Assembly: GCA_947627215.1 (NCBI GenBank)
Contig: CANQVD010000030.1
Location: 1 to 47,216, forward strand
Reading direction: 5' to 3'
DNA: 47,216 nt
Source of the DNA: an uncultured Eisenbergiella sp.
GTDB lineage: Bacteria > Bacillota > Clostridia > Lachnospirales > Lachnospiraceae
Shown here: positions 10,732 through 41,785 of the stretch, piece after piece
Layout of the letters: each line of letters opens with the position of its first letter
How positions within the stretch are numbered: the first letter of the stretch is position 1
Notes under the pieces: model-generated
Databases searched by the model: none
Told to the model about the DNA's origin: nothing
Seen by the model: the letters and a program-made list of their open reading frames with translations, nothing else
Position numbers and translations under genes: made by a program

Positions 10732-10760
10732 TTGAATCCGCAGACAAAATATGGTAGAAT
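10732..10760 (+). promoter_or_regulatory. Promoter of the degV-family gene
   Basis: TTGAAT (10732-10737) and TAGAAT (10755-10760) are spaced by 17 bases, so transcription would start near 10767. This places the in-frame ATG at 10751 outside the message and supports the GTG start at 10811. Confidence 0.65.
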
Positions 10761-10810
10761 GTACGGGATTTGGACGAAAAAACGGTTTTTCAGAAAGAGA
10801 GGTGTTTCCT

Positions 10811-11698
10811 GTGGCGGATTATGTGATCACCTGCTGTTCCACGGTGGATATGAGCAGGGAATATATGGAGCAGAATAACGTGCCTTTCGCGATGTTCCAC
10901 TATCAGGTGGACGGGAAGGATTTCGTGGACGACCTGTATGCGTCCACCACGCCGGAGGCGTTTTACCGGAGCATTGCGGACGGCGCGCAGCCTGTGACAT
11001 CCCAGATCAATGCGGAGGGCTACTGTCGGCTGTTCGAGCCGATCCTGCAGAGCGGGAAGGACGTTCTCCATCTGACGCTCTCCAGCGGGATCTCCGGCAC
11101 CATCAATTCAGCCAACGTGGCGAAGACGCAGATGGAGGAGGAATATCCGGGCCGCAGGGTGGCGGTGGTGGATTCGCTCGCGGCGTCCTCCGGTTACGGG
11201 CTGCTTCTGACCCAGGCGCTGGAGAATCAGAAGGCGGGGATGGATCTGGAGGAGAACGTGCGCTGGATCGAGGAAAACAGGCTGAAGCTTCACCACTGGT
11301 TTTTCTCCACCGATCTGACCAGTTATATCCGGGGCGGCCGGGTGTCGAAGGTCGCCGGCTTCCTGGGGCAGACGCTGAATATCTGTCCGTTGCTGAATGT
11401 CAATTCCGAAGGAAAGCTGATCCCGCGCACCAAGCACCGGGGCAAGAAGCAGGTGATCCGCGCCATCGTCAGCAGGATGGAGGAGCACGCGCGCGACGGA
11501 TACGATTACAGCGGGAAATGCTATATGTGCCATTCGGTCAGTCTGGACGACGCGAAGGAGGTGGCCCGCATGGTGGAGGAGCGGTTCCCGAAGCTGGACG
11601 GCCGGGTGCTCATCAATAACATCGGCACGGTGATCGGCGCCCATACGGGCCCCGGCACGGTGGCGCTGTTCTTCTGGGGAGACGAGCGGACGCTCTGA
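10811..11698 (+). CDS. DegV family protein (fatty acid-binding)
   Basis: The 295-aa product matches DegV proteins, which bind a fatty acid and in some bacteria act as FakB partners of the FakA fatty acid kinase. Typical segments are CSTVDMS near the N-terminus, TSQIN, LTLSSGISGT and YIRGGRVSKVAGFLGQTLN. The GTG at 10811 is preferred: GAGAGG precedes it, and the ATG at 10751 lies inside the promoter. No FakA gene is in the window. The stop lies only 10 bases before the large palindrome. Confidence 0.9.
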   Translation: MADYVITCCSTVDMSREYMEQNNVPFAMFHYQVDGKDFVDDLYASTTPEAFYRSIADGAQPVTSQINAEGYCRLFEPILQSGKDVLHLTLSSGISGTINSANVAKTQMEEEYPGRRVAVVDSLAASSGYGLLLTQALENQKAGMDLEENVRWIEENRLKLHHWFFSTDLTSYIRGGRVSKVAGFLGQTLNICPLLNVNSEGKLIPRTKHRGKKQVIRAIVSRMEEHARDGYDYSGKCYMCHSVSLDDAKEVARMVEERFPKLDGRVLINNIGTVIGAHTGPGTVALFFWGDERTL

Positions 11699-11708
11699 GG
11701 ATCGGTCC

Positions 11709-12052
11709 TGTCAACCGCCCGCATCACTTTCCCGCCTGCCCAGGGCTTCCCCGCTTCCCCATGGCCCGCCCGGAGGGACGCCGCAGGCATATACAGATGC
11801 AGAACCCGATGCAGAACATGCATCATCCGCCGCCGATCCTTTCCGGCCCGAAACTGCCGGGGAATACGGAAAACTCGCTTCGCTCAGACAGCCCGTATTC
11901 CCCGGCACGGGCCAAAAAGGCTCTCTGGCGGATCCTCTGATGCCTGTCTGCAAGGGTCCTGCATCTGTATATGCCTGCGGCGTCCCTCCGGGCGGGCCAT
12001 GGGGAGGCGGGGAGGCCCGGGGCAGGCGGGAAAGTGATGCGGGCGGTTGACA
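11709..12052. repeat. 344-bp near-perfect palindrome (MITE-like or long hairpin element)
   Basis: The two ends are inverted copies. The outer arms of about 100 bases (11709-11806 and 11955-12052) differ by only about four bases. The middle arms are related but carry small gaps. The core arms TGCCGGGGAATACGG (11855-11869) and CCGTATTCCCCGGCA (11893-11907) are perfect, around a loop containing CGCTTCGCTC. The outermost bases are TGTCAACC and GGTTGACA. No convincing reading frame lies inside, as both-strand frames are mirror images of each other. It fills nearly all of the gap between degV and alaS. It could be a non-autonomous mobile element or a structured RNA, and the sequence alone does not decide. 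Confidence 0.85.
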
Positions 12053-12075
12053 AGCCGCCGAAAGGAATCTATAAT
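12047..12075 (+). promoter_or_regulatory. Consensus promoter of alaS, with the -35 box in the palindrome end
   Basis: TTGACA (12047-12052) and TATAAT (12070-12075) match consensus perfectly at 17-base spacing. The -35 box is exactly the right terminus of the 344-bp palindrome, while the -10 box lies in unique sequence. Confidence 0.85.
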
Positions 12076-12119
12076 AGGCTGGATCATGAAAGAAACCTGA
12101 TGGTTTGGAGGAAGATTAC

Positions 12120-14762
12120 GTGGAAAAGTATGGCGTAAATGAACTGAGGAAAATGTTCCTGGCGTTTTTTGAGAGCAAGGGACATCTGGCGATGAAGAGC
12201 TTCTCGCTGGTGCCGCACAATGACAACAGCCTTCTGCTCATCAATTCCGGTATGGCCCCCTTAAAGCCCTATTTCACCGGGCAGGAGATCCCGCCCAGAA
12301 GGCGGGTCACCACCTGTCAGAAGTGCATCCGTACTGGCGATATCGACAATGTGGGAAAGACCGCGCGGCACGGAACGTTCTTCGAGATGCTCGGCAATTT
12401 TTCCTTCGGCGATTATTTTAAGCATGAGGCTATTGCCTGGAGCTGGGAGTTTCTGACGGAGGTGGTGGGGCTGGACCCCGACCGCCTGTATCCGTCCGTC
12501 TACCAGGACGACGATGAGGCCTTCGATATCTGGAACCGGGAGATCGGCATCGCGAAGGAGCGCATTTTCCGGTTCGGCAAAGAGGATAATTTCTGGGAGC
12601 ACGGCTCCGGCCCCTGCGGCCCCTGTTCCGAGATTTACTATGACCGCGGCGAAAAGTACGGCTGCGGAAAGCCCGGCTGTACGGTGGGCTGTGACTGCGA
12701 CCGCTATATCGAGGTCTGGAACAACGTGTTCACCCAGTTCGACAACGACGGGCACGGGAACTATACCGAGCTGGAGCAAAAGAATATCGATACCGGCATG
12801 GGGCTGGAGCGTCTCGCGGCAGTGGTGCAGGATGTGGATTCCATTTTCGATATCGATACGCTGTACGCTCTGCGCAGCCGGGTGAGCGAGCTGGCCCATA
12901 AGCCGTACCATCAGGAATATGACTGGGATGTCTCGATCCGCATCATCACCGACCATATCCGCAGCGCGACGTTCATGATCTCGGACGGCATTCTGCCCTC
13001 CAATGAAGGGCGGGGCTATGTGCTGCGCCGGATCATCCGCCGGGCGGCGCGCCACGGTAGACGGCTCGGCATCGAAGGAGAATTCCTGGCCGATCTGAGC
13101 AGCACCGTGATCGAGGGGAGCCGGGACGGCTATCCGGAGCTGGAAGAGAAAAAAGCCTTTATTTTCAATGTGCTGACCCAGGAGGAAAATAAATTCAGCA
13201 GGACCATCGATCAGGGTCTGGAGATCCTGTCGGAGCTGGAGGAGAAGATGAAGCAGCAGGGGACGAAGGCGCTTTCCGGAGCGGATGCGTTCCGGCTGTA
13301 CGATACCTACGGCTTTCCGCTGGATCTGACCCGGGAGATCCTGGAGGAAAAGGGCTTTTTTGTGGATGAGGAGGGCTTTGCCGCCGCGATGCAAAGGCAG
13401 AAGGAGACGGCGAGAAAGGCCCGCAAGACCACCAATTATATGGGCGCGGACGTGACGGTCTACGAGTCCATCGACCCGGCCATCACCTCCGTTTTTGTAG
13501 GATATGATCGGCTGACCCATGATTCTGTGATCAGCGCCATGACCACCGATACGGAGGTGGTCATGGCGCTGACCGACGGACAGAGCGGAACCATCATTGT
13601 GAACGAAACGCCGTTCTACGCCACCATGGGCGGCCAGGAGGGCGACCGCGGCACCATCACCGGACCGGAGGGCAGCTTCGCGGTGGAGGATACGATTAAA
13701 TTGAAAGGCGGCAAGGTGGGCCATGTGGGACGCATGGTGCGCGGCATGCTCCGGCCGGGCGACGCCGTGACGCTGTCCGTGGACGCAAAAAGGCGGCAGG
13801 ACACCTGCAAGAATCACACCGCCACGCATCTTTTGCAGAAAGCGCTGCGCGATGTTCTGGGCACCCATGTGGAACAGCAGGGTTCGCTGAACAATGCGGA
13901 CAGGCTGCGGTTCGACTTCTCCCATTTCTCCGCCATGACGCGGGAGGAGCTGGAGGATGTGGAGCGCCGGGTGAATGAGAAGATCGCGCAGAATATCCCG
14001 GTGACCACGGCTGTCATGCCCATCGAGGAAGCCAGAAAGTCCGGCGCGATGGCGCTGTTCGGCGAAAAATACGGCGATACCGTGCGCGTCGTGAGCATCG
14101 GAGACTATTCCAGAGAGTTCTGCGGCGGGACCCATATCGGCAATACCGGCGCCATCGGGGCGTTCAAGATTCTTTCCGAGAGCGGTGTGGCGGCCGGCGT
14201 CCGCCGGATCGAGGCGCTGACCGGACAGGGGGTTTTCGATTATTACCGGGATGTGGAACAGAAGCTGGAGGCCGCGGCGCAAATCCTGAAGGTGCCCGTG
14301 TCGGGCGTGGAAGAGCGGATTCGCCATCTGCTGGCCGAGGTGAAGGCGCTGCAGAGCGAGAACGAATCCTTAAAGAGCCGGGCGGCCAGGGACGCGATGG
14401 GCGACGTGATGGACCGGGTGGCCCAGGTGAAGGGCGTGAAATATCTGGCGGTCAGCGTAAAGGACGTGGATATGAACGGTCTGCGGGAGCTGGGCGATCA
14501 ATTGAAGGAAAAGCTGGGCGAGGGCGTCGTGGTGCTGGCCTCCGAGGCAGAGGGAAAGGTCAATCTGATCGCCATGGCGACGGACGGCGCGATGGCGGCA
14601 GGCGCGCACGCGGGCAATCTGATCAAAGGGATCGCGAAGCTCGTGGGCGGCGGAGGCGGCGGCCGTCCGGGCATGGCGCAGGCCGGCGGCAAAAATCCGG
14701 CCGGCATTCCGGCGGCGCTTCAGGCGGTTCCCGGCGTGCTGGAAGGACAGTTGAAGGATTAA
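12120..14762 (+). CDS. alaS: Alanine--tRNA ligase
   Basis: The 880-aa product charges tRNA-Ala. It shows the class II catalytic core at the N-terminus (KYGVNELRKMFLAFFESKGH, and RHGTFFEMLGNFSFGDYFK). The editing domain follows, with the zinc-binding HTATH near residue 568 and CGGTH near residue 668. The C-terminal C-Ala/DHHA1 domain has the Gly-rich GGGGGGRPGMAQAGGK. The GTG at 12120 is preferred to an upstream TTG because GGAGGAAG lies 8 bases before it and the usual AlaRS N-terminus begins there. The length is normal. It is driven by a consensus promoter just upstream, and rpsU behind it has its own. Confidence 0.97.
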   Translation: MEKYGVNELRKMFLAFFESKGHLAMKSFSLVPHNDNSLLLINSGMAPLKPYFTGQEIPPRRRVTTCQKCIRTGDIDNVGKTARHGTFFEMLGNFSFGDYFKHEAIAWSWEFLTEVVGLDPDRLYPSVYQDDDEAFDIWNREIGIAKERIFRFGKEDNFWEHGSGPCGPCSEIYYDRGEKYGCGKPGCTVGCDCDRYIEVWNNVFTQFDNDGHGNYTELEQKNIDTGMGLERLAAVVQDVDSIFDIDTLYALRSRVSELAHKPYHQEYDWDVSIRIITDHIRSATFMISDGILPSNEGRGYVLRRIIRRAARHGRRLGIEGEFLADLSSTVIEGSRDGYPELEEKKAFIFNVLTQEENKFSRTIDQGLEILSELEEKMKQQGTKALSGADAFRLYDTYGFPLDLTREILEEKGFFVDEEGFAAAMQRQKETARKARKTTNYMGADVTVYESIDPAITSVFVGYDRLTHDSVISAMTTDTEVVMALTDGQSGTIIVNETPFYATMGGQEGDRGTITGPEGSFAVEDTIKLKGGKVGHVGRMVRGMLRPGDAVTLSVDAKRRQDTCKNHTATHLLQKALRDVLGTHVEQQGSLNNADRLRFDFSHFSAMTREELEDVERRVNEKIAQNIPVTTAVMPIEEARKSGAMALFGEKYGDTVRVVSIGDYSREFCGGTHIGNTGAIGAFKILSESGVAAGVRRIEALTGQGVFDYYRDVEQKLEAAAQILKVPVSGVEERIRHLLAEVKALQSENESLKSRAARDAMGDVMDRVAQVKGVKYLAVSVKDVDMNGLRELGDQLKEKLGEGVVVLASEAEGKVNLIAMATDGAMAAGAHAGNLIKGIAKLVGGGGGGRPGMAQAGGKNPAGIPAALQAVPGVLEGQLKD

Positions 14763-41729: not shown

Positions 41730-41785
41730 AAAAAGGGACGCTGTAAAGCAGATGACCGCTCATCTGTTTTACAGCGCCTTTTTTC
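41730..41785. terminator. Bidirectional terminator between thrC and the XRE gene
   Basis: AAAAAGGGACGCTGTAAAGCAGATGA (41730-41755) pairs with TCATCTGTTTTACAGCGCCTTTTTT (41760-41784) around a tiny loop. A-run and T-run on either side let it stop thrC on plus and the XRE gene on minus. The stretch 41542-41729 has no gene that I can support. Confidence 0.88.

Follow-up and report, generated by a model that had tools for sequence, protein, structure and literature searches.

Among the described systems closest to the repeats reported here, bacterial REPs are 20–40 bp long and tagged by GTAG/CGTC; REPINs, whose ends are conserved, adjoin their own transposase and show compensatory changes in the spacer, as described in the accessible portions of these reports (PMC3116915, PMC3733652). 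A yeast study (PMC8604942) describes, in the available part of its text, template switching that homogenizes the arms of inverted repeats and inverts the spacer between them; it also notes that transversions are favored in bacterial data. For Nematomorpha mitochondria, the accessible text reports coding palindromes with perfect inverted repeats of up to 284 bp (PMC6649704), and for sponge mitochondria it reports hairpin elements that repeatedly invade intergenic DNA (PMC2800124). In the available part of a further report, spacers are limited to 8 nt (PMC13155455).

The palindrome upstream of alaS and the age of the promoter

We analyzed a contig of 47,216 nucleotides from an uncultured Eisenbergiella sp. 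(the whole of this stretch is referred to as the window and its genome as G000), in which a degV-family gene (10751–11698, + strand) lies upstream of, and in tandem with, alaS (12120–14762, + strand). The identities of DegV and AlaS were confirmed by NCBIfam, and the assignment of alaS with its GTG start also draws on relatives. The degV stop (11698) and the alaS start (12120) are separated by 421 bases, of which 344 are occupied by a palindrome (11709–12052) that ends in TGTCAACC on the left and GGTTGACA on the right. The earlier note had called this palindrome near-perfect, and it is: the outer arms of 99 nt are 96% complementary, with four differences (11742/12019, 11747/12014, 11755/12006, and 11803/11958) and a longest exact run of 47. 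The left arm (11709–11807) has 68% G+C and is specific to this copy, its first 73 nt matching only itself and the right arm in an own-genome search with E up to 0.001. The right arm (11954–12052) repeats the left in inverted form; a single match (75%), with the copy at C9:69774, extends into it, up to 12026.

The center of the palindrome (11805–11973, + strand) is a dispersed core, delimited by the own-genome search and pairwise extents, that forms an imperfect hairpin with conserved left/right asymmetries. At its tip (11855–11907, + strand), two fully complementary segments of 15 nt (11855–11869 and 11893–11907) enclose 23 nt, within which lies the conserved tip loop AAACTCGCTTCGCTCAGACAG (11871–11891, + strand). 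The claim that the core arms match perfectly holds for this 15-bp tip stem only, because bulges interrupt the predicted pairing from there out to the outer arms. The predicted RNA fold of positions 11700–12060 (−321 kcal/mol) is far beyond chance, given a z of −30.8 and none of 100 shuffles being equally good. As single-stranded DNA, the tip loop gave no stable predicted fold. A scan of the window detected no other inverted repeat with arms longer than 33 nt within 400 nt, and a terminator scan, which counts loops of 3–8 only, returned no terminator-like site on the + strand of 11500–12300. Elsewhere in the window, a 25-nt hairpin at 41731–41784 (84% complementary, with a T run at its end) resembles an ordinary terminator.

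As the earlier note had stated, the right end of the palindrome supplies TTGACA (12047–12052), and TATAAT (12070–12075) follows 17 bases later; this alaS promoter (12047–12075, + strand) was the only promoter-like site found by a scan of 11500–12300. The same TTGACA-17-TATAAT arrangement precedes alaS in eight of nine palindrome-free relatives, with GTTGACA common to all eight and GGTTGACA present in four of them. The sole relative without TTGACA/TATAAT is G005 (L045), where degV and alaS are spaced by ∼24 nt and perhaps form one operon; in G003 and G004, the degV match is on a different contig. The sequence upstream of alaS was read in ten relatives, none of which has the palindrome there, and G012, in which the gap holds a palindrome remnant and another element, has also kept the promoter. 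Because the TTGACA box is present in palindrome-free relatives, the right end of the palindrome (GGTTGACA, 12045–12052, + strand, which includes the −35 box) sits in old host DNA. The alaS promoter is thus ancestral and unchanged, and the proposal that an insertion built, replaced or donated it is ruled out. Given the ancestral −35 box, TGTCAACC at the left end (11709–11716, − strand) most likely arose by inverted copying of the old −35 region, and the conserved right end suggests this direction of copying. This case corrects a tempting reading: a promoter box that borders an insertion can have served as the source of a copy instead of being its product.

In G012, the nearest relative, the degV–alaS gap (L040 and L052) contains ∼35 nt resembling the right arm and is split by another element, which has inverted ends GTGAAGTGAAAAGTTAACTTCCACTTCT and ∼13 nt duplicated. 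Both contigs terminate inside this element, and a similar end adjoins the palindrome at L004. We dropped the reading of this gap as the state before insertion; a scar left by deletion, like that at L080/L098, is more likely.

Dispersed copies and a second palindrome family

The earlier note had also interpreted the palindrome as an inserted element, for which dispersed copies were to be sought in the genome and its relatives. That search revealed 15 copies in the own genome (family 1) and copies at other sites in two close relatives, as opposed to one locus shared by every relative. The tip loop gave 15 own-genome matches at up to three mismatches, compared with one for a reversed-pattern control; every one of the 14 loci L003–L016 contained a palindrome, and L017 contained none. 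Family-1 palindromes, the window copy included, are 134–355 nt long. Among 12 other genomes of the genus, family 1 was found in G012 and G009, and there was one weak match in G006. The earlier note was thus partly right about insertion and wrong about the promoter, and the interest of the locus lies in the repeat family and its arms.

The sequence shared within family 1 spans about −70 to +85 around the loop, with left/right asymmetries preserved. Outside the core, the arms of a copy are alike (mean identity, 93.6% in 37 copies; range, 81–100%), and similarity of arms between copies was unrelated to identity of their cores (rho 0.05, p 0.17; 651 non-orthologous pairs). Arms were shared above z 4 in 16 of these 651 pairs, so that arms are sometimes carried along with a copy; among the 14 arm-sharing pairs listed, six involve the neighbors C11b and C11c or their counterparts. 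The outer 40–45 nt of 44 own-genome arms have 74% G+C, compared with 54% for the genome sample and 55% for the flanks of copies of the second family described below. For 11 arms, a search of the own genome returned 22 self matches and three weak ones, all three adjoining other family-2 palindromes; with no source found for these 11 arms, we rejected copying from elsewhere in the genome.

Gene context was assigned by a codon-score call, because plain open reading frames were unreliable (spurious GC-rich frames), and was clear for 35 of 70 copies, orthologues included: 26 lie between tandem, six between convergent, and three between divergent genes. Upstream of one gene (L016, L078, and L085), two palindromes flank one promoter, with G000 carrying the first, G012 the second, and G009 both. 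At L076 (∼1240–1330), we also noted a further dispersed, partly tandem GC-rich repeat containing GCGAAGC, for which a query of 1261–1350 gave many matches in G000, G009, and G012.

A 400-kb sample of the genome together with the window contained ten long palindromes, and the nine outside the window share a different core (family 2). Shuffled copies of six of the 21 sample sequences contained no long palindromes. When one family-2 palindrome was searched against the own genome, 40 of 69 candidates were scored and 42 matches obtained, of which two were the query itself, and all 20 further places picked from the better matches were palindromes of 182–314 nt. Nine in 400 kb extrapolates to ∼90 in 4.0 Mb, so that, with family 1, the genome may carry long palindromes of the order of 100.

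In a wider sample of 299 genomes drawn from the taxonomic family, nine, among them the own genome, have the tip loop at up to two mismatches. Fifteen loci from the other eight loop-bearing genomes were analyzed; 11 of them, in six Lachnospiraceae genomes, have an inverted repeat of 184–303 nt around the loop and carry different arms, and L140, L143, L152, and L153 have the loop with no inverted repeat around it. At L184, L195, and L196, the sequence that flanks the alaS palindrome on the right has matches in G009 and G012 that lie near each other in opposite orientations, so that a larger inverted duplication may be present there. In the open-licence literature, we found no earlier description of such repeats in Lachnospiraceae.

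Palindrome arms evolve in concert

We compared orthologous palindromes between the genomes of close relatives, with copies aligned by the orientation of the core; sites with an inverted core may blur the single and other classes of change but not the symmetric class. At ten family-1 sites, each found in two genomes (582 aligned arm columns), there were 21 symmetric and 64 single changes, and independent change would yield 0.59 symmetric double changes. Similarly, five of 11 family-2 sites gave ten symmetric and 20 single changes, with 0.13 symmetric changes expected; the other six fell below the palindrome identity limit of 80% and were left out of the count. By eye, three of these six have conserved arms and an inverted core, and in the other three, both arms are largely different and the flanks are still alignable, which separate insertions at a single position could also explain. 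An inverted core was seen at three of 12 family-1 sites (14 pairs) and four of 11 family-2 sites (12 comparisons), seven of 23 in total. The two arms of a palindrome thus evolve in concert. Symmetric changes comprise 18 transitions and 13 transversions and single changes 72 and 12 (Fisher p 0.004); the greater share of transversions among symmetric changes parallels the remark on bacterial transversions in the template-switch study (PMC8604942).

We consider it probable that these palindromes are a dispersed and likely mobile repeat, in which a conserved core with a fixed tip loop is flanked by arms that are kept alike by copying from arm to arm. The element would have two zones: an imperfect-hairpin core carrying the fixed loop, and outer arms that different copies for the most part do not share. 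In the course of replication or repair, one arm would serve as the template for the other, by template switching or by conversion within the palindrome, so that complementarity is kept while the arm sequence drifts. Such copying would flip the core, as recombination between the arms would likewise do, and could overrun the arm into host DNA. At alaS, the one such case, copying from the alaS side through GGTTGACA would have placed TGTCAACC at the left end; a second candidate, L121:19529, was withdrawn because relatives end that gene differently. Central or one-sided loss would occur by deletion between short direct repeats. It is the concerted arms, the inverted cores, and the published parallels that lead us to prefer copying at the level of DNA.

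Bacteria generally tolerate long near-perfect palindromes poorly, yet this lineage appears to carry on the order of 100 (extrapolated) and has an SbcD gene. Because that gene is present in G000, G009, and G012, lost palindrome cleavage does not explain their persistence, and we rejected loss of SbcD as the cause; a search of G005 gave no match to SbcD. The many sites are natural material for counting arm conversion, core inversion, and palindrome loss, and since paired arms record each copying event twice, sets of isolates would allow such counts.

Alternative origins and relation to described systems

Three sites with a palindrome in one genome are empty in a relative: L121:2928 (empty in G009), L115:18548 (in G012 and G009), and L176 (in G009). 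They carry direct duplications, which measure 6, 6 (one mismatch), and ∼9 nt (two mismatches), and a search with E up to 0.01 detected no inverted repeat there. This pattern suits insertion, and precise loss would look alike. A fourth site, L080, is empty in G009 with no clear duplication (L080/L099), and other empty or near-empty sites (e.g. L113:3876, L115:9607, L178, and L175) are too diverged for their junctions to be read.

These duplications, although the last two are imperfect, together with the dispersal of the copies, are what a miniature transposon moved in trans, of REPIN or MITE type, with the arms as its terminal inverted repeats, would leave behind. Such an origin would also agree with the five matches to Y1 transposases in the own genome, two of which span an uninterrupted 146-aa frame. 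However, no MITE-type terminal inverted repeat was seen when the arm ends of copies were compared with each other by eye, which leaves a transposase without a terminal repeat to recognize. The ends differ in 20 copies examined by eye for GTAG/CGTC-tagged end palindromes, and it is the center that is conserved. Furthermore, the 2.0–3.4-kb loci surrounding the five Y1 matches contain no core match longer than 15 nt, the lengths of the duplications differ where a MITE would have a fixed one, L080 in G009 has no clear duplication, and the duplications are also explicable by precise loss between direct repeats. We therefore regard a miniature transposon as a possible but doubtful origin.

In some relatives, only a hairpin or a one-sided remnant is found where another genome has the full palindrome. 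Such states would be expected if the core enters the loop of a hairpin already present in the host, such as an intrinsic terminator, and the loop is then copied by fold-back synthesis, giving each insertion its own arms. Three family-1 site pairs (L078 versus L097, L079 versus L105, and L010 versus L087) show a hairpin or core-less palindrome in the relative and its loop twice, inverted, in the filled copy; a fourth case is in the second family (L067 versus L092), and the separate histories of arms and cores agree with this origin. Yet on visual reading, asymmetric deletion between direct repeats of 2–5 nt would also account for all four states, as would deletion between short direct repeats for the hairpin-only and remnant states in general, and the three empty sites have short direct duplications and no inverted repeat. 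Ordinary terminator stems, moreover, are shorter than the 50–100-nt arms. Insertion into hairpin loops was accordingly demoted as a general mechanism, and we consider it unlikely. Among the loci concerned, L087:450–628 in G012 is a 179-nt palindrome lacking the family-1 core, and L010 of G000 has similar arms with the core; at L092:377–576 in G009, a family-2-like core lies inside the hairpin that in G012 is intact and terminator-like (L067, ∼1757–1800).

Selection on RNA, keeping the hairpin as a terminator, mRNA stabilizer or structured RNA, could draw on the very stable predicted fold and on the 26 tandem and six convergent placements among the copies with clear context. However, among the arm mismatches of 26 tandem copies, read on the transcript strand, there were 50 G·U, 47 A·C, and 57 other; with G·U not preferred over A·C, RNA pairing is not what is preserved. 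Transversions among the symmetric changes (13 of 31) and the copies between divergent genes also argue against it. The window has no Rfam match at the gathering threshold, and on eight palindrome loci with E up to 1, the Rfam results were a tRNA and, on this tRNA, two further hits below the threshold, leaving the palindromes themselves unmatched. The attenuator or long RNA hairpin that the earlier note had offered for alaS meets the same absence of G·U preference and, because the palindrome lies upstream of the promoter, alaS transcripts starting there would not include it. We have set RNA-level selection aside as improbable.

The main caveat concerns short-read assembly. De Bruijn assemblers can merge near-identical inverted arms, which could inflate both arm identity and the number of symmetric changes, and G012 and G009 are apparently metagenome bins with short-read style contig names. 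That arm identity is largely an artifact of collapsed arms is nonetheless highly improbable, even with some contigs ending near such repeats (G012 C114 and G000 C11), because arms vary between copies and between genomes, arm mismatches are shared by two genomes in 13 columns, and orthologous palindromes recur across separately assembled genomes.

Arm-to-arm copying within a dispersed repeat thus remains our preferred reading. More tentatively, the palindromes might belong to a class of mobile DNA in Lachnospiraceae of which only the center is inherited; the arms might be newly generated at each insertion or later, in the form of a perfect inverted pair, and from then on be rewritten jointly, and the tip loop might be what the moving or copying machinery reads.

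Set against the available portions of the published accounts, the repeats are like REPINs and RAYT-linked REPs in being dispersed intergenic hairpins in a genome with Y1 transposase genes; unlike them, they have a conserved core, mostly unique arms, a length of 134–355 nt, and no core found near a Y1 gene (PMC3116915, PMC3733652). Like the inverted repeats homogenized by template switching, they have arms made identical and an inverted spacer, and symmetric change beyond independent mutation was found in both families, as was spacer inversion; that study concerns short repeats of ∼10–16 nt in yeast genes, whereas here arms of 45–100 nt recur in many dispersed copies with a shared core (PMC8604942). 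The palindromes of Nematomorpha are similarly long, with both arms changing in concert, but they lie within mitochondrial genes, and no shared core is mentioned in the accessible text (PMC6649704). Finally, the recurrent invasion of intergenic DNA resembles that by the hairpin elements of sponge mitochondria; in the two types described in the available text, the stems are conserved and the loops slightly variable (PMC2800124), whereas here the reverse holds, with a fixed loop and variable stems.
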